Source: Caldithrix abyssi (GTDB lineage: Bacteria > Calditrichota > Calditrichia > Calditrichales > Calditrichaceae). From it: DNA of 52,204 nt. A model generated the notes under the pieces. The model made no database searches. It saw only the letters and a list, made by a program, of their open reading frames with translations, and was not told the DNA's origin. Shown piece by piece: positions 38,934 to 52,204 of this stretch; within the stretch, counting starts at the first letter, position 1; every line of letters begins with the position of its first letter. A program made the translations under genes and the position numbers. The stretch is taken from NCBI GenBank assembly GCA_011369465.1, contig DRQG01000085.1:1-52204 (forward strand), written 5' to 3'.

Positions 38934-39306
38934 TGGAACCTCCATATTGTATTATGTAAGGTTTAAAGACCTGCTAACCGAAATTTTGTATTTTTTATTT
39001 AACATTCAGAGGTAGGTTATATCTGTAAAAGCCGTTAGGTCCGGGTTTCACTAAGAATTAATTTACGGTACATATCATCGTATATACAAGTATTTTCGTA
39101 TTTTTAACTTTTTTCGCGGAATGCCTTGTTGCCTTTGCCAGCCCGTCAGTTTTAAAATACAACTTGTCTAATATTGGTTTGGTTAAAAAACCTTTAAACC
39201 GCCTTCCTTAATAGAATTAAATTTCACTTTTGATAATCCAAATTAATATCCTCCTTCGTTAAATTCTGTTTGGGCTTATTTACAATAAAATATCCTTAGT
39301 ATTCAC
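38934..39306. other. Intergenic region with no recognised content
   Basis: About 370 AT-rich bases upstream of the 1191-residue protein and downstream of the glycosyltransferase-like gene, both on the minus strand. The GGAGGT ribosome binding site of the former is at its left edge. No convincing promoter, terminator, RNA or small gene is seen. Confidence 0.5.
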
Positions 39307-40851
39307 TCATTTTAATTTCTTTAACTCAGATGAATAAGAAGTCGTTTTTGCTTGATCCCCCAGATATTGATTGAGTCTGGCAGTCATAATCAGGGAAGGT
39401 AAAAAATCCGGTTTTTCGACCAAAGCACGAGTAAATGCTTTTAGAGCAAATTTTTTGTTGTTAAGAGCAATGCTCATTTCCCCAATCTGGTGATATGTAT
39501 AATGATGCGGCCAGGAAGTATCATCTTTTAACGAAATAAAGGTTAAAATTAATATAACTGATAAAATTGCGACAATCTTCTTTATTGAACCCAACATCAT
39601 TGTTTTATACAGGTAATGGAATAAACAGGCAGAAAACAACACAGCAACAGGTAGTAAAGGCATACGATGATCGGATGATATAAAGAAAATAAAAAGGCTG
39701 GTCACATAAGACCAAAACCAGATTTTTACCAGGCTCAGGAATTCATCGGAACTTTTTATAAATGTAAATACCAGGGCTAACGGTATCAGGAAACCGAAAT
39801 TCAATTTCAGGATGCGAAATAGATCGGAAAAAGATGACTGAATTGCGTAATCATAATTTAACGGAAATTCCTTTCCCGAAAGTAAATGCTGAAATTTCTT
39901 AATGAACAACAACAGCCCTTCTTTTGGTTTCGAATAATAGAAATTGATCACCCGTTTTAACCAGAATACATTTTCATCCAGGGAAGATATTTCTGTTCCG
40001 GTCTGTTTCCTGATGTATTCTTTGGACGAGCGTTGAAACCCGGCGGGCGTATTGTCCAGATAGGGAATTTTTGTATATAATCCATCCGCACCCGAATGAT
40101 TTCCTATGAACAGATTCATTCCAACGCTCGATCTGATCGGCATTTCTGCAGATTTGCCCTGAATGAGCAGAAAAAGCAATACCGGCCATAATGCCAACAA
40201 GGGGAGAAACAAAGAAAAAGTTTTCCTTCTAAAAATAGTTTTGTTGTGAGAAAAAAACAGGAATCCACTAAGTACAGGAATAATGATGAGAAAATGGGGT
40301 CTTAACTCTATTAGGATACCTAAAATAATGAGAAATAGAATTAGATAGATATTCTTCCCCAAAAACAACCACTTATGTAACAGAACGAGACAAACGGTTT
40401 CAAGAAACAAAATTGGGACAATGGGCAAAGCCACTCCCTGATAGAATATAGCCGGGCCAAATAGAATCATAAAAGTTCCACTCAAAACACCCACCATCCG
40501 CGAAATTTGATTTCCCAGCCAGACGATTAAACCAACGCTAATCGAGTACAATACAGCATTGAGATAGGTAAGTATTTCCAATACTGTGCAATCCAGACCA
40601 AGAGTATATTTGAAAAAAGAGGTTACTTTGGAAATTACAAATATATATACAACATAAAATTTGGAGAGGGGAAAGCCGATCAGATCGTGAATACTATTCA
40701 AATAAACCGCTTTTGAATAATACAGCATAGCATCCGCCACCGGTATCAAACGGTGAGGCAATGAATGCGTTTCTACAAGATAATAAATGGAGATAAAAAG
40801 AGTTATACATCCCAAAAGGATCGGTTCTATCTTCTTATACTTCGGTTTCAT
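39307..40851 (-). CDS. Multi-pass glycosyltransferase-like (GT-C) membrane protein with C-terminal TPR
   Basis: A 514-residue protein with about ten to twelve membrane helices (first near 10-28). After the first helix comes a loop with DAMLYYSKAVYL, which resembles the acidic first-loop motif of GT-C enzymes such as PMT/ArnT (GT39/GT83), where lipid-linked sugar is the donor. The C-terminal 75 residues (YHQIGEMSIALNN and KAFTRALVEKPDFLPS) resemble one to two TPR units, presumably periplasmic or cytoplasmic. Function as a protein or lipid glycosyltransferase is inferred. The start is 6 bases after the preceding lipoprotein gene, so it is in the surface-protein operon and might glycosylate its products or their lipids. 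Confidence 0.7.
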   Translation of the reverse strand: MKPKYKKIEPILLGCITLFISIYYLVETHSLPHRLIPVADAMLYYSKAVYLNSIHDLIGFPLSKFYVVYIFVISKVTSFFKYTLGLDCTVLEILTYLNAVLYSISVGLIVWLGNQISRMVGVLSGTFMILFGPAIFYQGVALPIVPILFLETVCLVLLHKWLFLGKNIYLILFLIILGILIELRPHFLIIIPVLSGFLFFSHNKTIFRRKTFSLFLPLLALWPVLLFLLIQGKSAEMPIRSSVGMNLFIGNHSGADGLYTKIPYLDNTPAGFQRSSKEYIRKQTGTEISSLDENVFWLKRVINFYYSKPKEGLLLFIKKFQHLLSGKEFPLNYDYAIQSSFSDLFRILKLNFGFLIPLALVFTFIKSSDEFLSLVKIWFWSYVTSLFIFFISSDHRMPLLPVAVLFSACLFHYLYKTMMLGSIKKIVAILSVILILTFISLKDDTSWPHHYTYHQIGEMSIALNNKKFALKAFTRALVEKPDFLPSLIMTARLNQYLGDQAKTTSYSSELKKLK

Positions 40852-40857
40852 ATTACC

Positions 40858-41487
40858 TTACTTATCTAATCCTATATAATCCGAGGATGCCAATTTCAGG
40901 TTGAATTCACATTTACGTATTTCCCAGTCATTTCCATTTCCTTTTGCCTGCAGTTTGCCCACGACGCGATCCTTGCCAATTTCAATTATTTCACCTGAAG
41001 CTGAACCAAGTTTAATTTTGGAGTCATTTTGTCCATAGAACCATATCTCATTAGAACTCGATTCGATATATCCGGATACCACAGATTCTCCCAGATAACG
41101 CAAACTGAGAAAAGGCTCTGAAAAATTTTTAGAATCCAGAGCGCCCGGTTTAAACCCGTCAATACCGCTGTTTGTTTTGCTGGAAAAGCTCAGATAGATT
41201 GAATACCCCTCCGAATGTCCTTCGATATCTATATACGCATCCGTAAGCGGCGAAGCTACCGTTGCCAATCCGGTGGCAAACTGATCGGTTTCCAGTTTCC
41301 CGTTCCTATAAACTTCCGCCCGGAACCCCTCCGCGATATTTTCATTTCCTGTAATATTTTTGTCATTGTTGCAGGCGTGTATGAAAAATATTGACAAGCC
41401 GACTGAAAAAGTTATAATTACCGACAAAATCTTTTGTTTTTTAGGGGTAAAATTGAAATAGTCATAATTTTTTTTCGATTTCGTCAT
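40858..41487 (-). CDS. Putative lipoprotein of unknown function
   Basis: A 209-residue protein with a 20-residue basic N-terminus, one hydrophobic segment (about 20-37) and a following Cys (FIHAC) that may be a lipobox, although the sequence before it is unusual. The rest is a beta-rich extracellular domain with no recognised family; a conserved-looking region includes GHSEGYSIYLSFSSK and GSASGEIIEIGKDRVVGK. The ribosome binding site is strong (GAGGAGGT). It is 13 bases downstream of the kelch gene and 6 bases before the membrane glycosyltransferase-like gene, so clearly co-transcribed. Confidence 0.7.
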   Translation of the reverse strand: MTKSKKNYDYFNFTPKKQKILSVIITFSVGLSIFFIHACNNDKNITGNENIAEGFRAEVYRNGKLETDQFATGLATVASPLTDAYIDIEGHSEGYSIYLSFSSKTNSGIDGFKPGALDSKNFSEPFLSLRYLGESVVSGYIESSSNEIWFYGQNDSKIKLGSASGEIIEIGKDRVVGKLQAKGNGNDWEIRKCEFNLKLASSDYIGLDK

Positions 41488-41500
41488 AATGACCTCCTCT

Positions 41501-42781
41501 TTATTTTATAAATAACATCTTTTTTGCTGTTTTAACACCATTTGTGTTTAATTCGTATACATAAAAACCACTCGAAACATATTTCCCATAACTATCTCTT
41601 CCATCCCATTTAATTTCATAATTACCGAGCGGTTGTTTATCATTAACTAAAGTGCGAATTTCTTTACCTACCGAGTTATATATTTTTAATGTCACAAATG
41701 ATGAGTGGCTTAAACGGTATGATATTTTCGTAGTAGGATTGAATGGATTAGGATAGTTTTGTTTTAATTCTGCAGACTCAGGTAAAGATGCTTGGGAACT
41801 CTCGATCTGCGTTAAAGAAGTCAAATCTATGCTTTGAACAATACGATAATCCTGATAAACATCATCGATATTTGAATTACCAGCGAGGATGTATAATTTA
41901 TTGTCGAGAATCGCCGTGGAAGCATGGCGTCTTCCAATAAAATTAGATGTGTAAATTGTCCAACTGCTATCAGTCAAATTGTATCGCATAATGCGATTTA
42001 TATCCACGTAGTCACCGATTACATAGATGTAATTGCCATAGACTGCCAGTTTATGCGCGCTCACCGGATAAGGAGTATGCCCCTTAAACTGCCATTCATC
42101 AGCCATTATATCATATACATAAATTTCATCAAGGGGTTGACCATTATAGCCTCCAATAACATAAATATTCCCATTCAGGAAGCAGGCCTCCGTTTCAGCG
42201 GCGATGGGTAAGGAAGACACAGTTGACCAACTATTCGTTTTTGTATTATAAACATCTACTCTGTCAGAGTATGAACTCGAAGCACTGCCTCCTATAATGT
42301 AAATAAGGCTATCTATGACAACAGACCCTGCTTTTGCTCTCGGGAAAGGTATGGAAGCGCCCTGGACAACCGAATTTGAAATCGGATCATAGATTTCCAC
42401 TAAATCATATATCTCTCCGGATATACCTTGACCACCTATGATATAAATTTTTCTGTCAGAAACTTCGGCATTAATATACGATCTGCCGAGAAGCCTGATC
42501 GGCTTTACAAGCCAATAATCTTTATTTGGAACTTTATACTCTACATAGCTATCCTGATGAAATGAAAATCCGTAAGGCACCCCGTAAGCAAAAGTTCCTC
42601 CGATGTGATAGAGTGTATCTCTTATCACAACCGTTCGTTGTCCATTCGTACCGTACCAAACAGATGGTTCCCACCTTAATTGCAGGGTGTCCAGTGTTAT
42701 TTGGGCAAATGATGTGGATACCAGAGAAATAAATAACAGTAAAATAATAAAAGATAACAATTTAATTTTTTTTTCGCTCAT
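41501..42781 (-). CDS. Kelch-repeat surface protein with T9SS sorting domain
   Basis: A 426-residue protein: signal peptide (about 1-26, ending SFA), six kelch-like repeats forming a beta-propeller (for example KIYIIGGQGISG, LIYIIGGSASSS, NIYVIGGYNGQP, KLYILAGNSNID) at about 45-320, and a T9SS sorting domain from NYPNPFNPTTK to KKMLFIK. The propeller is a probable protein- or glycan-binding module; no galactose-oxidase copper site is apparent. GGAAGGAT lies 7 bases before the ATG. It is 32 bases downstream of the 99-residue gene and 13 bases before the lipoprotein gene. Confidence 0.87.
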   Translation of the reverse strand: MSEKKIKLLSFIILLLFISLVSTSFAQITLDTLQLRWEPSVWYGTNGQRTVVIRDTLYHIGGTFAYGVPYGFSFHQDSYVEYKVPNKDYWLVKPIRLLGRSYINAEVSDRKIYIIGGQGISGEIYDLVEIYDPISNSVVQGASIPFPRAKAGSVVIDSLIYIIGGSASSSYSDRVDVYNTKTNSWSTVSSLPIAAETEACFLNGNIYVIGGYNGQPLDEIYVYDIMADEWQFKGHTPYPVSAHKLAVYGNYIYVIGDYVDINRIMRYNLTDSSWTIYTSNFIGRRHASTAILDNKLYILAGNSNIDDVYQDYRIVQSIDLTSLTQIESSQASLPESAELKQNYPNPFNPTTKISYRLSHSSFVTLKIYNSVGKEIRTLVNDKQPLGNYEIKWDGRDSYGKYVSSGFYVYELNTNGVKTAKKMLFIK

Positions 42782-42813
42782 ACGTACATCCTTCCATAAA
42801 TCACAAACAAATT

Positions 42814-43098
42814 CTACTTATTTTTACTAAAATCGATCTCTTCTCCAAGCTTGATCAATCGCCCAAAATACTTCACACGACTGCTACTTCTATCAATTTT
42901 ATATACCCAAATATTACCCGTTCTTTTATCAAGGAATACCAGATTTATTCGATCATTGGAAACCGTTGAACTCATCAGTATCGGATCATTAGCCAGGGGG
43001 GAATCTGCCATTGCCGGTTTATTGAAAGACTGATACGCTATCGCGCCTAAAAAAAACATAATAAAAAACAAGACGGTTTTTAAGAAGCCATTATTCAT
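42814..43098 (-). CDS. Small exported or membrane-anchored protein
   Basis: About 94 residues. Met at 43098 is preferred (AAGGGAAAG upstream) over 43113, whose codon overlaps the stop of the preceding gene. One N-terminal helix (about 6-24, TVLFFIMFFLGAIAYQSF) serves as signal or anchor, with no lipobox. The remaining 65 residues contain a strand pattern NLVFLDKRTGNIWVYKID that reads like a single beta-propeller blade. No family recognised. It lies between the esterase and kelch genes in the same operon. Confidence 0.62.
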   Translation of the reverse strand: MNNGFLKTVLFFIMFFLGAIAYQSFNKPAMADSPLANDPILMSSTVSNDRINLVFLDKRTGNIWVYKIDRSSSRVKYFGRLIKLGEEIDFSKNK

Positions 43099-43109
43099 AA
43101 CTTTCCCTT

Positions 43110-46100
43110 TCATTTTATTAGGACCATTTTCCTCGTAATTCTTTTATTAACTTTGTTGAGTATTATAGAATAAAAATATACACCGCTGCTCAATGCGTCC
43201 GTGTTCAACCTTAACTCATGCATTCCTGCGGATTGATAACCATTCACAAGCGTACGTATTTTTTGGCCGAGTACGTTGTACAAGATGATTTGTACCCGTC
43301 CGCCTGCCGCGAGTGAATATTTAATACGAGTTGTAGCGTTAAACGGATTGGGATAATTTTGGTACAGGCGCCAGTGTTTTGGTTGATGAACCGATTTATC
43401 CCCGATTGCTGTGGGAAGGTGATAAAAAAGGGTAAATGTATCCGTGGAAGTGCTTATATTTTCTCCATCGCTACTCGTAACGTACCAGTTATAGGCGCTG
43501 TCGGGTTGAAAAAAACCATTGCCGTCAAATTGAATAGATGATTCCTCAACAGGATAAACAGTGGTATCCTTCGAGTTACTGCTCAGGTATAACGCATAGG
43601 TAACCGGCGCGCCTTCTGCATCAGATGATTCTTCCCAGGAAAAAACTACATTTCCTTCGGCCGTTATGGTGTTGTCCTCCGGTTCTGTAAGTTTTGGTTG
43701 GGTCGGCGGCAGAGATTGATATCCCGTAAAAGTCACCTTTCCTTTGGAGGCATTATCATAATAATCGAAGATACTTTCTGCTATGGCCGAAGAGTCTACC
43801 GTTGTCCAAAAATTATTTTGCGCCTCTATATCATTTGGGCTGTTATTATATACGGCAAATTTGTTATTGTCCCTGTATCCGTAAAACACATTATTCCCAC
43901 GGCTATCCCGGCTTCCTCCGCCCAAATCCGGCTTCCCATTGGTTTTGATATAAATACCGTGCGACCTGCTGTGCATTAATTGTATGTTTTGAATCAGAAT
44001 ATCTTTCTGATCGCAAACAATCGGATATCCCGCCCCCCAGCTCTCGTCGCCGGCATAGTAAAATTCACAATATTCAAGAACGCACTGCTCGGAAATGGCT
44101 GTCTTGTTAATTTGAATACCGCCCCAGTCGCCGGGCAGAGGATCGCTGGAACCGTCGTTGTTGGTATCGCCGTAATAACGGTCATCTTTGTACGAGGTAA
44201 ATACAATGGGCTGATCGGCCGTGCCCCGGGCTACAAATCCGCCGTTCACCACAAAATCGGCGTTCGGCTTCATCTTAAAAACACAGCCCGGCGCTATGGT
44301 TAAAACCGCCCCCTGCAGTATGCGGATGTTGTCCGTTACCCACATAGGCAGCCCCGGATTGTCGATACGAATGTCGCTGCTGTAATCGCCTACTACCAGA
44401 CCTACGGCGTTTATGCGGCAATTGTACACATTGGTATAGCGAATCTGAGGATTGGCCTGCAGGTTTAAACGGATGGGATATCCCGCCCCCCAGCTCTCGT
44501 CGCCGGCATAGTAAAATTCACAATATTCAAGAACGCACTGCTTGGAAATGGCTGTCTTGTTAATTTGAATACCACCCCAGTCGCCGGGCAGAGGATCGCT
44601 GGAACCGTCATTATTGGTATCGCCGTAATAACGGTCATCTTTGTACGAGGTAAATACAATGGGCTCTTCTGCCGTGCCGCGGGCTACAAATCCGCCGTTC
44701 ACCACAAAATCGGCGTCCGGTTTCATCTTAAAAACGCAGCCCGGCGCTATGGTTAAAACCGCACCCTGCAGCATACGGATGTTATCCGACACCCACATAG
44801 GCAGCCCCGGATTGTCGATACGAATGTCGCTGCTGTAATCGCCTACTACCAGACCTACGGCGTTTATGCGGCAATTGTACACATTGGTATAGCGAATCTG
44901 AGGATTGGCCTGCAGGTTTAATCGGATGGGAAAACCCGCCCCCCAACTCTCGTCGCCGGCATAGTAGAATTCACAAAATTCAAGAACGCACTGCTCGGAA
45001 ATGGCTGTTTTGTTAAATTGAACACCGCCCCAGTCGCCGGGCAAAGGATCGCTGGAACCGTCGTTGTTGGTATCGCCGTAATAACGGTCATCTTTGTACG
45101 AGGTAAACACAATGGGTTGATCGGCCGTGCCGCGGGCTATAAATCCGCCGTTCACCAAAAAATCGGCGTCCGGTTTCATCTTAAAAACACAGCCCGGCGC
45201 TATGGTTAATACCGCTCCTTGATTAACACGGATGTTATCTTTCACCCAAAAAGGCAGCCCCGGATTGTCAATGCGAATGTCGCTGCTGTAATCACCCACA
45301 ACCAGGCCTACGGCATTTATACGTGAGTTGTATATTTTTGTATTACGAATTACCGGATTGGCTTTCAGATTAAGACGGATGGGAAAACTCACCGCCCAAC
45401 TATCGTCTCCGGCGTAAGAAATCTCACAGTATTCCAATATACACTGGCCATCGATGGCGGTGGATTCAAAAGATACCCCGCCCCACGAACCGGGCAATTG
45501 TTTGCCAGACGAGGTAAAAATAATGGGATAGGATGGTTTGCCTTTCGCTATCAATCCGCCGCGGATAACGAGGTCGGTATCGTTTCGAAAGCGGATGATC
45601 ACGCCCGGTTCGATGGTTAAAACAACGCCCTGATCAACAATAACATCTTCCGTTACTTCGTAAGGACTGTTTGCCAGCGTCCATTTCGTATCCGAAGTAA
45701 TGTGCCCTTTCACTTTTGTTACCAACCCTGCTTCCCTTGAGTACACGGTTATCGTATCGCTTTTTAAGCCGGCCGAGCTCACTTCAATATCCATCTTCCC
45801 GCTCAAAGCAGTGGCCTTTAACTGGATTGATGCCTTTCCATTTTCAGCAATAACCGGATTTTGTCCTTCCAGGATGCCGTAATCCTGTCCCTGGACAATG
45901 TCGAACGAAACAGAATGCCCCTCCTCTAAAGAAATATTTCCAACAAAATCCTGCAATTCTGCGCTAATCGTCGTTTTATCTATATTATTGGCTTCGATAC
46001 CTGAGGGATTGGCATAGGCATACAATTGATACGGCGGCCCTATGAGTTCGACAGACAACGTGAGCGGATATAGCCAGGATTTTCTCTGATAAGCCGGTAT

Positions 46101-47459
46101 ATTATATGTGATTTTAATATATAGCGTATCATCAGCTAATTCTGTACTGGTTAGATAGAATTCGATTCGGTTCGATGTATTGGTTTGTTTTTTTCGAATG
46201 GTTGTTTTGTCTTCGGCGATGATTTCAAAAGAGATACTGTTTTCCGTGAAAAATCCGGGAATGTTATCCAAACGGAAGCGATACACACCGCTCTGGTTTA
46301 TGCTGAACATAAAGTAATCGGTATCCGTCTTACTTTCACCCTGATGTGTGGCAAAGACATGATAGGATTCATCAATATGAATCTGATAGGCGGTATAAAT
46401 ATGATCCGGTTCATCCAGACCTTTCATAATACTTCCATAATCCTTCGTCTCATTCCAATGTGCTCGATGGGTAAGTATTTTTTCCGCCAAACCATAGGGT
46501 ACCGGTCTTTTTTGCTCATCATACAACCATTGTCGGTCCAGATCTACAACCCAATCGCCGCCAACGGAGGTCCCTTCATCAGAGACGATCCATGTGTATT
46601 CAAGGTCTGCAGGAAGCGGCATATTGGGATTATCGAATGTAAGGTCAGATCCTGCGTTTATCCCCGTAATCCAACCGCCTACCTTTCCGTCACAATTTAC
46701 ATCCTCTTCGTGGAACAGCAATGGTACTTTATCCTCATCCCCTCCAAACAGATAAACTCCATTAGCCCAGGGGAATAAACTATAACTATAGTTCCACCGC
46801 AAATCCCTCACAGCTTCCGAAGAATTGTCAATAACAAATTCCTGGAATACGGATAAATCTGCGTTACTTCCTAAATGTGGAGTTCCGATAGTAATCAGTT
46901 TGGCAACTTTATGCCCATCCCTTTCATCCCACCATCTATGTACGCCGCCTTCCCGACGTTGCAGATATTCCCGGGCCGCCAAACCGCCCATAGAATGACC
47001 GACCAGAATTACTTTTGAACTGCCGGTTACCTGAAGCACCTTCCGGATCATTTTGGACAGCGCGTAACCTTGTTTGACGATAGCCGATTCGTTGCTTTCA
47101 GATTCTCCAAATCTCCCGTGATCCATATAGGGTATTATTTTATTCTGATTTTTATCATAAATTCCGTCGAAGTTGATGCAAAAAAGGCTGTTATCCGAAA
47201 GGTCGTCGTAATATATTACATCATCCGAATAGAGCGAGCTCCCGAAATTTGAGTTCAAAACAGCATGAAATATTCCTTTATTTGTATAAGGATCACCCCA
47301 TAAATAATTATCGGCCATAAAATATACGGTTTTCTGCCAGGTTTTATCATTACTGTTTAAACCGTGAATAAAAATGATGGGGTAAACGGGCTTTTGTGAA
47401 AAAAGCTGACCGAAAATCAAGAAGGATAACAGAAGTACAATTTTCCATCGATTACACAT
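43110..47459 (-). CDS. Exported alpha/beta-hydrolase with Ig and tandem beta-helix repeats and T9SS domain
   Basis: A 1449-residue protein. Signal peptide (about 1-21), then an alpha/beta-hydrolase (about 25-400) with oxyanion HG (residues 32-33) in IIFIHGLNSN and nucleophile S156 in VGHSMGGLAAREYL, as in lipases and PGAP1-like esterases. About 375-575 is beta-rich and ends in an Ig-like module. From about 600 to 1215, four blocks of about 150 residues form beta-helix-like repeats; three are almost identical, and their DNA shows a 453-base period. Each contains the Asp/Asn-rich, probably calcium-binding DTNNDGSSDPLPGD. A fibronectin-like domain (about 1260-1345) and the T9SS tail starting NYPNPFNATTR follow. 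It is likely a surface lipase or esterase on a repetitive stalk. Substrate unknown. Confidence 0.88.
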   Translation of the reverse strand: MCNRWKIVLLLSFLIFGQLFSQKPVYPIIFIHGLNSNDKTWQKTVYFMADNYLWGDPYTNKGIFHAVLNSNFGSSLYSDDVIYYDDLSDNSLFCINFDGIYDKNQNKIIPYMDHGRFGESESNESAIVKQGYALSKMIRKVLQVTGSSKVILVGHSMGGLAAREYLQRREGGVHRWWDERDGHKVAKLITIGTPHLGSNADLSVFQEFVIDNSSEAVRDLRWNYSYSLFPWANGVYLFGGDEDKVPLLFHEEDVNCDGKVGGWITGINAGSDLTFDNPNMPLPADLEYTWIVSDEGTSVGGDWVVDLDRQWLYDEQKRPVPYGLAEKILTHRAHWNETKDYGSIMKGLDEPDHIYTAYQIHIDESYHVFATHQGESKTDTDYFMFSINQSGVYRFRLDNIPGFFTENSISFEIIAEDKTTIRKKQTNTSNRIEFYLTSTELADDTLYIKITYNIPAYQRKSWLYPLTLSVELIGPPYQLYAYANPSGIEANNIDKTTISAELQDFVGNISLEEGHSVSFDIVQGQDYGILEGQNPVIAENGKASIQLKATALSGKMDIEVSSAGLKSDTITVYSREAGLVTKVKGHITSDTKWTLANSPYEVTEDVIVDQGVVLTIEPGVIIRFRNDTDLVIRGGLIAKGKPSYPIIFTSSGKQLPGSWGGVSFESTAIDGQCILEYCEISYAGDDSWAVSFPIRLNLKANPVIRNTKIYNSRINAVGLVVGDYSSDIRIDNPGLPFWVKDNIRVNQGAVLTIAPGCVFKMKPDADFLVNGGFIARGTADQPIVFTSYKDDRYYGDTNNDGSSDPLPGDWGGVQFNKTAISEQCVLEFCEFYYAGDESWGAGFPIRLNLQANPQIRYTNVYNCRINAVGLVVGDYSSDIRIDNPGLPMWVSDNIRMLQGAVLTIAPGCVFKMKPDADFVVNGGFVARGTAEEPIVFTSYKDDRYYGDTNNDGSSDPLPGDWGGIQINKTAISKQCVLEYCEFYYAGDESWGAGYPIRLNLQANPQIRYTNVYNCRINAVGLVVGDYSSDIRIDNPGLPMWVTDNIRILQGAVLTIAPGCVFKMKPNADFVVNGGFVARGTADQPIVFTSYKDDRYYGDTNNDGSSDPLPGDWGGIQINKTAISEQCVLEYCEFYYAGDESWGAGYPIVCDQKDILIQNIQLMHSRSHGIYIKTNGKPDLGGGSRDSRGNNVFYGYRDNNKFAVYNNSPNDIEAQNNFWTTVDSSAIAESIFDYYDNASKGKVTFTGYQSLPPTQPKLTEPEDNTITAEGNVVFSWEESSDAEGAPVTYALYLSSNSKDTTVYPVEESSIQFDGNGFFQPDSAYNWYVTSSDGENISTSTDTFTLFYHLPTAIGDKSVHQPKHWRLYQNYPNPFNATTRIKYSLAAGGRVQIILYNVLGQKIRTLVNGYQSAGMHELRLNTDALSSGVYFYSIILNKVNKRITRKMVLIK
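43885..45655 (-). repeat. Four tandem repeats with 453-base period inside the esterase gene
   Basis: The motif GCCCCCCA(G/A)CTCTCGTCG recurs at 44031, 44484 and 44937, spaced exactly 453 bases (151 codons), and a diverged version occurs at 45390. Long stretches of the two left-most copies differ by only a few bases, so duplication is recent or homogenised. The right-most (N-terminal) copy lacks the Asp/Asn-rich insert. Confidence 0.93.
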
Positions 47460-47524
47460 CGATAAAAATACCCCCTGTAAAATTCAAAAATTCGAAGACA
47501 TTTTTGTTTTACAGATATTTTAAA

Positions 47525-47564
47525 GACGGTTTGCCGGTTTCGATAATGAATTCGACAAACCGTC
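47525..47564 (-). terminator. Hairpin between lipoprotein and esterase genes
   Basis: GACGGTTTG pairs with CAAACCGTC (9 bases), with an inner TCGA/TCGA pairing. On the minus strand it follows the lipoprotein stop by about 11 bases and is followed by CTTTAAAATAT, a weak U-rich stretch. It may be a terminator or an attenuator within the cluster. Confidence 0.5.
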
Positions 47565-47574
47565 CTCAGGATAC

Positions 47575-48489
47575 TTATTTGGCAGCAGTAGGCGCAGGCG
47601 GATTTCCAACTTTCCATTTTTTCTGCATATCATCATACCACATATTTACCGATTCGAGTTTTAAGGGAAATTCAAATTTCGCTTTCTCAATAGGATTACC
47701 GGCAGCATCCGTTTTGGTTGTTATGTCATAAAATGCAAGTTTCACATTTTTCTTAGATATGATGTGCGGGAACAAAAGAATTCCCGAATAGCTGAAATCC
47801 GGCAATATTTCTTTATTGACATCATTGATCAGTTTATAGGCGTTTTTGTTTAAGGCAATCACTTGCGAAGCCAGCCCGATAGGATAGGTCATACTGAGCA
47901 GTCCCTTGGGCCGTTCTTTTTCATACTGTTCTTCAAAATAGGTGACCCAGTGGATCAAACTTTCATCACCGTCTATCGCGCTTTTGGGAAGTACCGATTC
48001 TCCTTGTTCGCCAACTCTGTATAACTGCGGATTACCCAAAAATGTAACTGCTTTTATAGGATCTTCTCCATCTACAACCAGATAGATGCGGGCGTCTTTC
48101 ATTCTTAAAATATGGGGCGTTTTATTTGTAATTTTTATCTTAAAAGCAGCCAACAAAAATCGCCCTGTGCCAAATGTCCAACACCATCTTTTTCCGTTTA
48201 AATCGGAAGGATAGTAGCTGCTTAAGTTTAATGTTTGGAGCGCTTCGGGCAAATCATCATAGTTAAAAGAAAAGAGTTCGGGATAGTCATAGATTTTGGA
48301 GGGTGAAAGCGGATCAACCTCAATAGTAACATTGCTAATAGTTTTTGAAATATTTTGCGGGTTAGTTAGTGCATACTCATCAAAACTGAAGGTGGCAATT
48401 TTTTTTGACCCTCCGCAGCTGGTTAGATAGAGCAAAACACTGAGCAACATAAATAGATACAAAAACATAAATTTGTACAATCTGGACAT
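47575..48489 (-). CDS. Putative lipoprotein of unknown function
   Basis: A 304-residue protein with a signal peptide and lipobox LTSC at residue about 25, followed by GGSKK. The +2 Gly suggests outer-membrane sorting. The body is mixed alpha/beta with no recognised family. It contains the strand pair LAAFKIKITNKTPHILRMK, typical of beta-sandwich domains with an NxTPHxL turn, and a C-terminal Pro/Ala-rich end. A very strong ribosome binding site (AGGAGGTG) precedes it. It lies 126 bases downstream of the TPR-CHAT gene and upstream of the hairpin. Confidence 0.72.
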   Translation of the reverse strand: MSRLYKFMFLYLFMLLSVLLYLTSCGGSKKIATFSFDEYALTNPQNISKTISNVTIEVDPLSPSKIYDYPELFSFNYDDLPEALQTLNLSSYYPSDLNGKRWCWTFGTGRFLLAAFKIKITNKTPHILRMKDARIYLVVDGEDPIKAVTFLGNPQLYRVGEQGESVLPKSAIDGDESLIHWVTYFEEQYEKERPKGLLSMTYPIGLASQVIALNKNAYKLINDVNKEILPDFSYSGILLFPHIISKKNVKLAFYDITTKTDAAGNPIEKAKFEFPLKLESVNMWYDDMQKKWKVGNPPAPTAAK

Positions 48490-48615
48490 AATGACACCTC
48501 CTGTATTTGATATGTGAAATGGGCCGGTTTGAGATTATAATTTTGATTGATCTACAATTTTATATATGATGAAGAGGAATGAAAATGGAAAGAGAACGAA
48601 AATTTTTTAGTAGAA

Positions 48616-51600
48616 TTATTTTCCAATCAATATAAAAGCGGCCCAATTACGAGGGAAGGCGGTGAGGGGATCTTCAATCATTTTCAGTTTAGCCTGACGT
48701 AAAGCCGAAGAGTACTCCCGACCATCGAGTACATTTCTGTAAAATAAGTTCATCAGTTCCGGGGTCATTTTGTCCGATATTTTCCATAGAGATACAATCA
48801 TATTCCTGGCTCCGGAGTAGAGAAACCCCCTTGTTAAGGCAATCAACCCTTCTCCGCTGATTAATTTACCTAAACCGCTCTCACAACTGCTCAAAACAAC
48901 CAAATCAGCATTCAAGGCAAGATTGTACGTTTCTCCTGAATATAGCACGCCGTCATTCTCGTCCGTATTCTTATCCGGTTGAGCAAATATAAGTCCGGAC
49001 AGTTTGGGATAATTATCATTCATTAAAGTATGGGTGGCGATGTGAATATATTTGTAATCAGAACAATTCTTTTTAAAATTCTCTTCCGTAGCATCATTAT
49101 AAAAATATCCTGCCGCCGGCAAATGTTTGCTATCAAAAAGATGTATAATGGAGCGAATTTCCTTTTCCGAAAATTTGAGCGAACGATATTTGCGTTGATT
49201 TATGACAAGAGACCGATTCAGACTATCTGCCAAAATACCGCCACGAAAATCATCATCTTTACTTGCCAAAATATAGCCGTTTTGCATATCATCGCTAAAC
49301 ACAGGAGCAAAACCAAGAAAGCCTTGTGCGGTTTTTTGATCTGAACGGAGTATGCCTTCCTTTAGTCTGTACATAAAACTCATGGAATAATAATATGATA
49401 TCTCAAAACTTCGAACCAGATAATCCTGTTGTGTAAAATCATCCGCTGGTCCTTTGTTCGCTATCAAAACTTCAAACGGCACATAACTGAGCACATCGTC
49501 GGGAATGATGCGTAATCTCCGATAGTTTGCTATTTCTTTTTCCAACGGGCTTATCAACAACTTATAGGCGGAAAATGCATTTTGAAGAAATGTCTCTTTA
49601 TCATACGTTTTAAGACTGCGAATAAGATTCAGAATTATTTTCTTCTCTTTTTCCGTAAACGGTGTGTTGAAAACAGTAAATTGATTTTTTGACAAGAGAA
49701 AAATATAGAGAGTGCTATCTCCCAGAAAATACTCCAGAACTGCTTCATTTTTGGATACAGTCGCTTGAAGATTGTCAAGAGAGGGTATCCTGATACCATA
49801 TTTTAACCGGTAGTATCTCGGATATTGTTTTTCCAGAAGATTAATCAAGTTATTATATTCAATTTTAGCATTTACAAAGCGGCTTTCCAGCGCAGAAACA
49901 GCCTGACTGTCCGCCGGCGGTTGTTCTGTTTTTAGTTTGAGAAGATCGTTCTCTATTCTGTTGATACTTGTTCTTAACCAGGATTCGCGTTCTCTCAGGC
50001 TATCGGGTATGTGAGCATATCTGGTGGCAAGACTATTTTGCATAATTTCGTTTAAAAGTGAAAATCGGTTTCGTTCTGCAGCTTGTAAAGCCCAATAAAG
50101 ATGCTTTTTCTCCTTCGTTTTTTTATATAATTCATAGGTGGCAGCCAGGGCCTTTTTGTATATATAATGGGTTCTTTGTGATGAACTCATTTTTGATTCA
50201 TCAAAATGATAGGATATTTTAATTCTATCCAGTACGTCTGTACAAAGTTTATAGGTCAGGACAGAAGATTTTAAATCGTGTATATGTTGCGTTTCATTCG
50301 TATATCGCGCATAAAATATATCTGCTTTACGCTCCAGAACATTTGCCAATTCCGGAAGCGAATTTTCTATGATTTCCTGCGTTGGATTTTTATAAATATC
50401 GGTATCTGTGAATTCCGGTAGCAAGTAGTGAAGAGCTTTTTGTGAATGTTGTAAAGCGGTTGTGTATTCTTCTTTTTGAAAATACACATCGGCCAAACCG
50501 TTGTAAGTATCCGCCAGATAAAGTTTATTCTTTACCGGCATTCCGTTCAATATTTTCAGCGATTTATTGTAATAAAAAACAGCATTATCATAATCTTTCA
50601 TTTTGGTATAGGTAATTGCCATATTATTGTATACAGTATTCGCGATATTAGGATGATCAGCCCCGAGCAATTCTTGTTTTATTACCAATGCTTTTTTATA
50701 GAAATCCAGAGCCTCAGTATATCTGGCCTGCATATGATAAATATTGGCCAAATTTGCCCAGTTATTGGCCATTCTTAAATTTTTGTTATTGTACATCTTT
50801 TTCTCGATGGATAAAATCTGGCGAAAAATTTTCTCCGCCTGTATGTAATTTTCCATCAGAGCATAAACATTTGCCATATTATTTAAAATGGATATTGTGA
50901 AAGGATGTTGCTTCCCGTAACTATTCTCTATATTTGGTAGGATGTAAGTTAGAATTTTTAAAGCTTCTTCATAATCTCCTGTTTTAGCATAGATTGTGGT
51001 AATGCCAAAAAGGCCTAATAGTGTTTGCGGGTTATTTTCCCCATAATTCATTTTGAGAATAGAGTGATTTCGCTGATAATATCGAAGAGCCAATTCATTC
51101 ATGCCCAGCTCTGAATAGCAATTGCCGATATTCCCATATACAAAACTCAGTTTTGGATGTAAATCTCCTAAGTTCTTTTTCCAAATATGTTCCGCTTTTC
51201 TAAAATAATTTAATGCTTTTTGATACTTACCCATTTTATAATATATGGCGCCTAATGCAAGGTATTCGTCAGCAATTCTTGGAAAATCTTTCCCCTTATG
51301 CTGGATAATAAAATTTAGCGCTTTGGTATAATAATATCTTGCCTGGTCAAAACTGTTTGTTCTGAAAAAATAATTTCCCATACCATGATATATTATTACA
51401 AAGGTAAGATCGTTTTTATCCAATAAAGAATCCGCCAAATCAAGAGCCCGGGAATAATAAAAGAAAGCCGAATCATACTGAGCTTTTTTCAGAAAAACGC
51501 TGGCAATAGCTCCTTCGGCTTTGAAATAATTAGACCAGTCCCCCACCTTATAATATAAAGGAAGGGTTTTTTTTAGATAAAAAAGAGCGCTATCGAACTT

Positions 51601-51741
51601 TGCTTCTCTCGAAAAGTCCAGGCCTTTTGTGTGATAATTCTTAGCTTCTTTATTTGCGGGATTCGGTGAGGTATCATTCCCAATACCCATAGAAGAAAAA
51701 GGGGTGCAAAGGACAAATAATAACAAAACAATTCTAAACAC
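48616..51741 (-). CDS. Exported TPR-CHAT caspase-like protein
   Basis: A 1041-residue protein starting with GTG (GAGGAAA about 8 bases upstream). A signal peptide (about 1-19, ending SSMG) points to export. Residues about 30-460 hold roughly ten TPR units (for example YYKMGKYQKALNYFRKAE, YTKMKDYDNAVFYYNKSL). A helical connector follows, and the C-terminal part (about 690-1041) is a CHAT domain, a caspase/HetF-related peptidase, with catalytic H904 in IHIATHTLM and C953 in LSSCESGLG, plus the family-typical GEGLIALTRGF and NWAAFILIGK at the end. Both catalytic residues are present, so activity is plausible. Known relatives act as proteases, including in some defence systems, but no Cas gene is here. 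Targets may be neighbours in the cluster (inference). Confidence 0.9.
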   Translation of the reverse strand: MFRIVLLLFVLCTPFSSMGIGNDTSPNPANKEAKNYHTKGLDFSREAKFDSALFYLKKTLPLYYKVGDWSNYFKAEGAIASVFLKKAQYDSAFFYYSRALDLADSLLDKNDLTFVIIYHGMGNYFFRTNSFDQARYYYTKALNFIIQHKGKDFPRIADEYLALGAIYYKMGKYQKALNYFRKAEHIWKKNLGDLHPKLSFVYGNIGNCYSELGMNELALRYYQRNHSILKMNYGENNPQTLLGLFGITTIYAKTGDYEEALKILTYILPNIENSYGKQHPFTISILNNMANVYALMENYIQAEKIFRQILSIEKKMYNNKNLRMANNWANLANIYHMQARYTEALDFYKKALVIKQELLGADHPNIANTVYNNMAITYTKMKDYDNAVFYYNKSLKILNGMPVKNKLYLADTYNGLADVYFQKEEYTTALQHSQKALHYLLPEFTDTDIYKNPTQEIIENSLPELANVLERKADIFYARYTNETQHIHDLKSSVLTYKLCTDVLDRIKISYHFDESKMSSSQRTHYIYKKALAATYELYKKTKEKKHLYWALQAAERNRFSLLNEIMQNSLATRYAHIPDSLRERESWLRTSINRIENDLLKLKTEQPPADSQAVSALESRFVNAKIEYNNLINLLEKQYPRYYRLKYGIRIPSLDNLQATVSKNEAVLEYFLGDSTLYIFLLSKNQFTVFNTPFTEKEKKIILNLIRSLKTYDKETFLQNAFSAYKLLISPLEKEIANYRRLRIIPDDVLSYVPFEVLIANKGPADDFTQQDYLVRSFEISYYYSMSFMYRLKEGILRSDQKTAQGFLGFAPVFSDDMQNGYILASKDDDFRGGILADSLNRSLVINQRKYRSLKFSEKEIRSIIHLFDSKHLPAAGYFYNDATEENFKKNCSDYKYIHIATHTLMNDNYPKLSGLIFAQPDKNTDENDGVLYSGETYNLALNADLVVLSSCESGLGKLISGEGLIALTRGFLYSGARNMIVSLWKISDKMTPELMNLFYRNVLDGREYSSALRQAKLKMIEDPLTAFPRNWAAFILIGK

Positions 51742-51795
51742 TATGTAGTTTCCTCACTATGGCGGAATCAACTTTAAAACGACACTATTTTTTGG

Positions 51796-52204
51796 TTAAT
51801 CTTGCTCCACATAAAATTTTCCCACATAGAGCAGTTCTTCCGTGTTTTCTAATTTCCAGTAGTAAACAGCTGGCGGAAGTGGAGCCATAAATATTAAAAA
51901 CATTTGATGGGTTTTAAGCGTGTATAGCGTCTTTCCTTTATTGTTAAGGATGATTACTTTAAAGCTGTCCTCCATCTCTGTTTTCCATTCAAACCGTATA
52001 GGCGGGTGTAGATGTTCATTTATCTTTGGCGCTATTATTTCTATCTCTTCAGATCTGTACACATCGTGGAGCACATTCTCCAACTCCGGATTGTTTTGAA
52101 AAGCGGGACTATCCTTTGGGCCGGAAACGTTTGAAATACCTTGCCAGTGGTACACCGATATAAAGCTAATTCCTACTACAAGAGCTGCTGCCAACGTTAA
52201 AAAA
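51796..52204 (-). CDS. Membrane-anchored protein, N-terminus outside the window
   Basis: The frame is open to the last base, so this is the C-terminal part, at least 136 residues. A hydrophobic segment at the edge (LAAALVVGISFISVYHW) is a membrane helix; about 115 residues of presumably periplasmic domain follow, with an Ig-like or beta-sandwich ending (VYYWKLENTEELLYVGKFYV). Position 54 bases upstream of TPR-CHAT and this one-helix layout fit an anti-sigma-factor-like protein, a common neighbour of TPR-CHAT genes (family knowledge recalled; not proven here). Confidence 0.6.
   Translation of the reverse strand, partial: FLTLAAALVVGISFISVYHWQGISNVSGPKDSPAFQNNPELENVLHDVYRSEEIEIIAPKINEHLHPPIRFEWKTEMEDSFKVIILNNKGKTLYTLKTHQMFLIFMAPLPPAVYYWKLENTEELLYVGKFYVEQD

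Follow-up and report, generated by a model that had tools for sequence, protein, structure and literature searches.

An exported TPR-CHAT protein of Caldithrix abyssi as a candidate partner of a membrane anti-sigma factor

CHAT domains in described sigma factor systems

Most discussion of CHAT proteins concerns cytoplasmic enzymes that act in defence and cell death. The protein considered here, which combines TPR repeats with a CHAT domain and appears to be exported, is encoded on contig C85 of a Caldithrix abyssi genome (GenBank DRQG01000085.1, assembly GCA_011369465.1; 4.31 Mb in 161 contigs, designated G000), and the 52,204-bp stretch that we call the window is this entire contig. On the evidence described below, we lean towards the view that this TPR-CHAT protein belongs to an envelope-signalling module together with an extracytoplasmic function (ECF) sigma factor and a membrane anti-sigma factor, on which CHAT would act as a site-1 protease. 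Of this proposed module, the CHAT gene and the final 135 codons of the anti-sigma gene fall within the window; the sigma gene should lie just past the contig end.

When PDB sequences were searched with a CHAT-domain profile, DdvA ranked first and alone matched significantly (E 4.7e-7, CHAT at 833-976); the TPR-CHAT proteins of Craspase came after it (E ~0.04). DdvA is the cognate anti-sigma factor of the ECF sigma factor DdvS in Myxococcus xanthus, and its signal is unknown (PMC4374960). Like the window, DdvA/DdvS (PDB 8rot, 8rw5) combines a membrane anti-sigma factor with a CHAT domain, and the His and Cys motifs fall within the matched stretch. However, DdvA unites its CHAT and anti-sigma domains in one chain, whereas the window encodes an immunoglobulin (Ig)-type anti-sigma factor and a free exported TPR-CHAT protein in two genes that are separated by a stop codon and 54 bp. 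Our reading is that the locus corresponds to DdvA with its sigma factor, in a form in which two genes stand in for DdvA. A literature search for a paper on the DdvA structure returned none.

In Craspase, a type III-E CRISPR system, the TPR-CHAT protease Csx29 cuts Csx30, an inhibitor of the ECF-like CASP-sigma (PMC10028731). The module proposed here has the same kinds of component, namely a TPR-CHAT protease, a sigma inhibitor and an ECF-type sigma factor; in Craspase the sigma factor is freed when its inhibitor is cut (PMC10028731). Craspase differs in being cytoplasmic and RNA-activated via Cas7-11, and its inhibitor is Csx30 rather than a zinc-finger membrane anti-sigma factor, whereas the window CHAT protein is exported. 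Among the genes tested alongside the window CHAT gene, neither Cas7-11 nor Csx30 nor any other Cas protein was recognised.

A review, citing Casas-Pastor 2021 and Huang 2015, places CHAT and peptidase genes in the conserved context of ECF54 sigma genes, with proteolytic control proposed (PMC8999054). The group is described there without an anti-sigma factor and its model member as actinobacterial (PMC8999054). So far as this description goes, the ECF54 context resembles the window module in bringing together ECF sigma genes and CHAT proteins, but differs from it in that a membrane anti-sigma factor is the recurrent partner here, and an anti-sigma-type gene adjoins the window CHAT gene.

The proposed logic is also that of regulated intramembrane proteolysis by RseA, DegS and RseP with RpoE, where a periplasmic protease cuts a single-pass anti-sigma factor and frees an ECF sigma factor. 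DegS is a membrane-anchored PDZ serine protease, whereas the enzyme proposed here is a soluble exported TPR-CHAT cysteine protease. By the features compared above, the window module is not a member of the DdvA type, Craspase or ECF54, and it fits between these systems, with a separate TPR-CHAT protein and anti-sigma factor that are both directed to the periplasm.

Literature searches for TPR-CHAT proteins with anti-sigma factors turned up nothing beyond the work on Craspase and the remark on ECF54. If a periplasmic TPR-CHAT protein does operate with a membrane anti-sigma factor, then the Csx29/Csx30/sigma logic would reach past CRISPR into ordinary envelope signalling, DdvA's unexplained CHAT domain would gain context, and the cleavage site and partner would become directly testable.

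The TPR-CHAT protein and the adjacent anti-sigma factor

The following features of the window are central to this proposal.

48616..51741, minus strand: exported TPR-CHAT protein, 1041 amino acids (Pfam CHAT, alignment, AlphaFold2, Foldseek)
51796..52203, minus strand: C-terminal 135 amino acids of a membrane anti-sigma factor, comprising the transmembrane helix, juxtamembrane segment and periplasmic Ig-like domain (homology, AlphaFold2)
52054..52056, minus strand: codon of the conserved juxtamembrane Arg, R50 of the fragment, with Ser next; candidate cleavage site (alignment)

An earlier reading of the DNA letters and their open reading frames (the original prediction) had described an exported TPR-CHAT protein with intact H904 and C953, and this description is borne out. 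The protein has strong Pfam matches to CHAT (E 6e-63) and TPR_12 (E 1e-60), and its hydrophobic N-terminus resembles a signal peptide, as judged by eye and by hydropathy. A TPR superhelix (~28-440) and a helical linker follow, and the CHAT protease domain (725-1041) is C-terminal. Within an alignment of 23 sequences, in which relatives share only 21-36% identity with the window protein, C953 of the dyad (H900/H904 and C953) is invariant and H904 almost invariant. The AlphaFold2 model (pLDDT 84.2) finds Craspase TPR-CHAT, separase and DdvA among its Foldseek matches. With its CHAT domain, His/Cys dyad and TPR repeats, the protein has the makeup of a TPR-CHAT protease, and proteolysis of a partner is predicted. 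Membership in a defence system was considered and rejected, as PADLOC gave no match for the seven proteins tested beyond a generic TPR family. An Rfam scan of the window gave no match.

The original prediction also advised looking upstream for a sigma factor. What lies there is the remnant of an anti-sigma gene that it had missed, a same-strand open frame of 135 codons that lies 54 bp before the CHAT gene and is cut by the contig end; sigma genes are present in relatives, and the window's own was not found. The N-terminal anti-sigma domain falls past the contig end. In full-length homologues, a zinc-finger N-terminus and one transmembrane helix are followed by a periplasmic Ig-like domain with invariant F, W, Y and W residues. 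Matches to zf-HC2 score above cut-off in L036 and L039, weakly in L045, and are degenerate or undetected in L040, L041 and L043. The AlphaFold2 model of the 135-residue fragment (pLDDT 85.6) shows a transmembrane helix and then a beta-sandwich; model and alignment agree on a single pass followed by a putative periplasmic sensor domain. An ECF sigma gene is located directly upstream in 13 of 18 homologues, an arrangement typical of membrane anti-sigma factors.

The segment between the transmembrane helix and the Ig-like domain contains an Arg in all 17 aligned sequences of this class and a Ser inside the same six residues in 14 of them, and the residue after the Arg is Ser or Thr in most. The chance of finding Arg in 17 of 17 is ~5e-10 under the assumption of independent sequences, which these are not. 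Use of the Arg motif as a marker of CHAT-linked anti-sigma factors alone was rejected, given that unlinked ones carry it too.

The Ig-like domain of the anti-sigma factor (51796-52045 in the window, minus strand, and in homologues) weakly resembles C-terminal sorting domains of the type IX secretion system (T9SS), with a match to PF18962 in L040 (E 0.016) and a Foldseek match to 8glk_D, a chain of a T9SS complex (TMt 0.66). This likeness raises the idea that the domain might sense T9SS traffic.

The same genome contains a second ECF sigma/zf-HC2 anti-sigma pair that is cut by a contig end (G000:C75:5395-6366, L070). This is the only such pair cut at a contig end, and a join between C75 and the window was rejected since both ends have their own transmembrane segment and the sequences differ. 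No contig overlapping the window end was found by DNA match.

Association of CHAT genes with sigma and anti-sigma genes

All comparative evidence comes from one phylum, represented by 40 genomes (G000 and 39 others), in which 55 TPR-CHAT genes were examined for neighbours; genes within 3 kb of one another are termed linked. A search for distant relatives in a wider set of genome contigs gave five weak TPR matches only.

A sigma gene is linked to 23 of the 55 CHAT genes, compared with ~2 expected at the sigma density of G000 (15-17 genes per 4.3 Mb), and even at a chance of 10% per gene the binomial tail for this association is 8e-10. Nine of the 55, including that of the window, are linked to an Ig anti-sigma gene, and an Ig anti-sigma gene plus an ECF sigma gene adjoin six of the 13 other CHAT genes in the window's clade. 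In the maximum-likelihood tree, a supported clade of 13 rows holds the window protein and includes seven of the eight Ig-linked CHAT proteins. L036, L039 and L045, the closest relatives of the window protein, are each linked to an Ig anti-sigma gene.

CHAT proteins of this clade and Ig anti-sigma factors occur in the same six of the 40 genomes (G000, G019, G030, G031, G032 and G034), for which the nominal probability of 2.6e-7 overstates independence because four of the six belong to one family. The exception to co-occurrence is G020, where a broken CHAT fragment of the clade type stands beside another sigma/membrane-protein pair. G000 itself has a single CHAT gene and a single recognisable Ig anti-sigma gene, which are adjacent, and the family's 14 other genomes contain neither gene. 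The two genes are codirectional in the window, and convergent and nearly touching in L036, L039, L040, L043 and L045. Given that gene orientation differs among loci, functional linkage is favoured over the inheritance of one frozen operon. On these gene-neighbourhood comparisons, the CHAT/anti-sigma partnership is well supported. The envelope-side signalling role that had been suggested for the locus is supported as well.

Some features of CHAT genes in these genomes deserve separate mention. Just upstream and on the same strand as the clade CHAT genes of L037, L038, L040 and L046 is a gene for a small exported lipoprotein, although these lipoproteins are mostly unrelated in sequence. A second CHAT clade (L104, L105, L109, L114, L116, L119, L120, L121 and L124), whose proteins carry a C-terminal transmembrane helix, has a repeated cassette of a sigma factor, a small protein of 113-148 amino acids and/or a single-pass membrane protein, and a TPR-CHAT protein; this is a second, independent sigma/membrane protein/CHAT module. 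CHAT genes number 8 to 19 in the large genomes of one family (G029, G030, G031, G032 and G034), a lineage expansion, versus 0-1 in the window's family.

Proposed mechanism and alternative explanations

In the mechanism we propose, the cytoplasmic zinc-finger domain of the anti-sigma factor would hold the ECF sigma factor at the inner membrane, while its Ig-like domain would be displayed to the periplasm. The exported TPR-CHAT protein, which probably cuts or senses the anti-sigma factor, would bind an envelope signal or the Ig-like domain via its TPR superhelix. Once activated, CHAT would cut the short segment between the membrane and the Ig-like domain, perhaps after the conserved Arg, and this site-1 cleavage would lead to release of the sigma factor. 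Of this scheme, sequence establishes the gene partnership, the topology, the intact dyad and the conserved Arg; binding, cleavage and its site, the signal and a sigma gene in this genome are inferred. Clan CD cysteine proteases, separase for example, commonly prefer Arg before the cut. We put forward only tentatively the more specific proposal that CHAT is a site-1 protease cutting at the juxtamembrane Arg-Ser/Thr, and that a single protease of this kind may act on several anti-sigma factors where a genome carries many of them.

Several observations weigh against the proposed module or its mechanism. The window's sigma gene was not found, as the contig ends before its expected place, and the pair on C75 is a different gene from the window's anti-sigma. 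About half of the Ig anti-sigma genes lack a CHAT neighbour, and seven of the 14 clade CHAT genes have no sigma or anti-sigma gene in sight, some of them on short contigs; pairing is therefore not obligatory. CHAT-linked anti-sigma factors do not group as a clade of their own, and the juxtamembrane Arg is equally conserved in those without a CHAT neighbour. G031 and G034 each hold both unlinked anti-sigma genes and unlinked clade CHAT genes, which, together with the Arg of unlinked anti-sigma factors, means that one protease may serve several anti-sigma factors or that the Arg may be structural. At a related Ig-linked locus (L100:6436-9756) the catalytic His motif of CHAT is changed (HFATTAH), and this protein is possibly a pseudoprotease. 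Cut sites of the solved Craspase TPR-CHAT proteins are reported not to be conserved (PMC11106740).

With these caveats in mind, other roles for CHAT must be weighed against that of a site-1 protease. CHAT could be an output of the sigma factor rather than its regulator, such that the sigma/anti-sigma pair senses the envelope and induces the protease for other targets, for example the neighbouring surface proteins. Sigma factors often regulate adjacent genes, the CHAT gene follows the anti-sigma gene after 54 bp, possibly on the same transcript, and surface-protein genes with T9SS tails are present near several loci. However, the regions upstream of sigma and CHAT genes in six relatives share no promoter-like motif above shuffled sequence (a weak test), conservation does not extend to any downstream family, T9SS tails are common in the genome, and the solved relative DdvA has its CHAT domain inside the anti-sigma factor itself. 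We consider an output role unlikely, though worth keeping in view.

The invariance of C953 and near invariance of H904 in such divergent relatives are hard to explain without catalysis, and we therefore find it improbable that the protein works without proteolysis, with its CHAT fold as a scaffold, and binds the anti-sigma factor in the periplasm to stabilise or mask it, like RseB with RseA. That possibility takes its appeal from cleavage being an inferred step, from the altered His motif at L100, and from the TPR superhelix as a binding surface. The original prediction instead joined CHAT and the six genes downstream of it (listed below) into one system, with the surface proteins as substrates. 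These genes share a strand and are all envelope-directed, and they share with CHAT a low G+C content (0.396 in 38946-52204 versus 0.449 across the remaining contig, and 0.363 for the CHAT gene). Yet none of their products is found again with CHAT, two have no homologue elsewhere in the phylum, and a 126-bp gap separates CHAT from the first lipoprotein gene. Free variation of neighbours around TPR-CHAT in relatives had been named as the observation that would count against this scheme, and such variation is what the 40 genomes reveal. Neighbour turnover has therefore already largely refuted the surface operon, and we regard it as very improbable.

Downstream surface-protein genes

All seven genes named in the original prediction, CHAT and six envelope genes in the order that it gave, are present on the minus strand where it had placed them. 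The six downstream genes are neighbours of CHAT rather than conserved parts of the module.

47575..48489, minus strand: lipoprotein, 304 amino acids, neighbour (clear lipobox, LTSC)
43110..47459, minus strand: alpha/beta hydrolase with three long repeats and a T9SS tail, neighbour (PGAP1-like, E 1e-7)
42814..43113, minus strand: exported protein of 99 amino acids, neighbour (no family match)
41501..42781, minus strand: kelch protein with a FlgD_ig/T9SS tail, neighbour (family match)
40858..41487, minus strand: possible lipoprotein, 209 amino acids, neighbour (weak lipobox, IHAC; no family match)
39307..40851, minus strand: multi-pass membrane protein, 514 amino acids, neighbour (no Pfam or NCBIfam match)

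The repeat-bearing esterase and the kelch protein were correctly recognised; the former is a PGAP1-like alpha/beta hydrolase. Of two predicted lipoproteins, the first has a clear lipobox and the second only a weak one. The enzyme called GT-C-like is a multi-pass membrane protein, and the GT-C likeness is unconfirmed because its sequence matches no family. Short gaps had been reported for the last six genes. Downstream from CHAT the gaps are 126 bp (to the lipoprotein), 115 bp (lipoprotein to esterase), and then -4, 32, 13 and 6 bp; thus five genes are tightly packed, and CHAT and the first lipoprotein gene are joined less tightly.

Across the 40 genomes, no homologue of any of the six downstream proteins occurs beside another clade TPR-CHAT protein. 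The 304-amino acid lipoprotein and the 514-amino acid membrane protein have no homologue in the other 39 genomes, and the hydrolase has one substantial relative in the phylum (44% identity), on a 4-kb contig with no CHAT gene in view. Among 96 neighbour genes of the 14 clade CHAT genes, that of the window included, the only types that recur are ECF sigma and anti-sigma factors, proteins with generic T9SS tails, and an unrelated pair of housekeeping type. T9SS tails near CHAT are weak evidence because G000 alone has 142 of them. A conserved downstream operon was rejected, given that neighbours turn over among relatives, and we take the six genes to be passengers specific to the lineage, or local targets at most.

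Within the hydrolase gene (44020-45225), three direct repeats of 300 nt, spaced at 453 nt, are 92-100% identical, a product of recent duplication or recombination.

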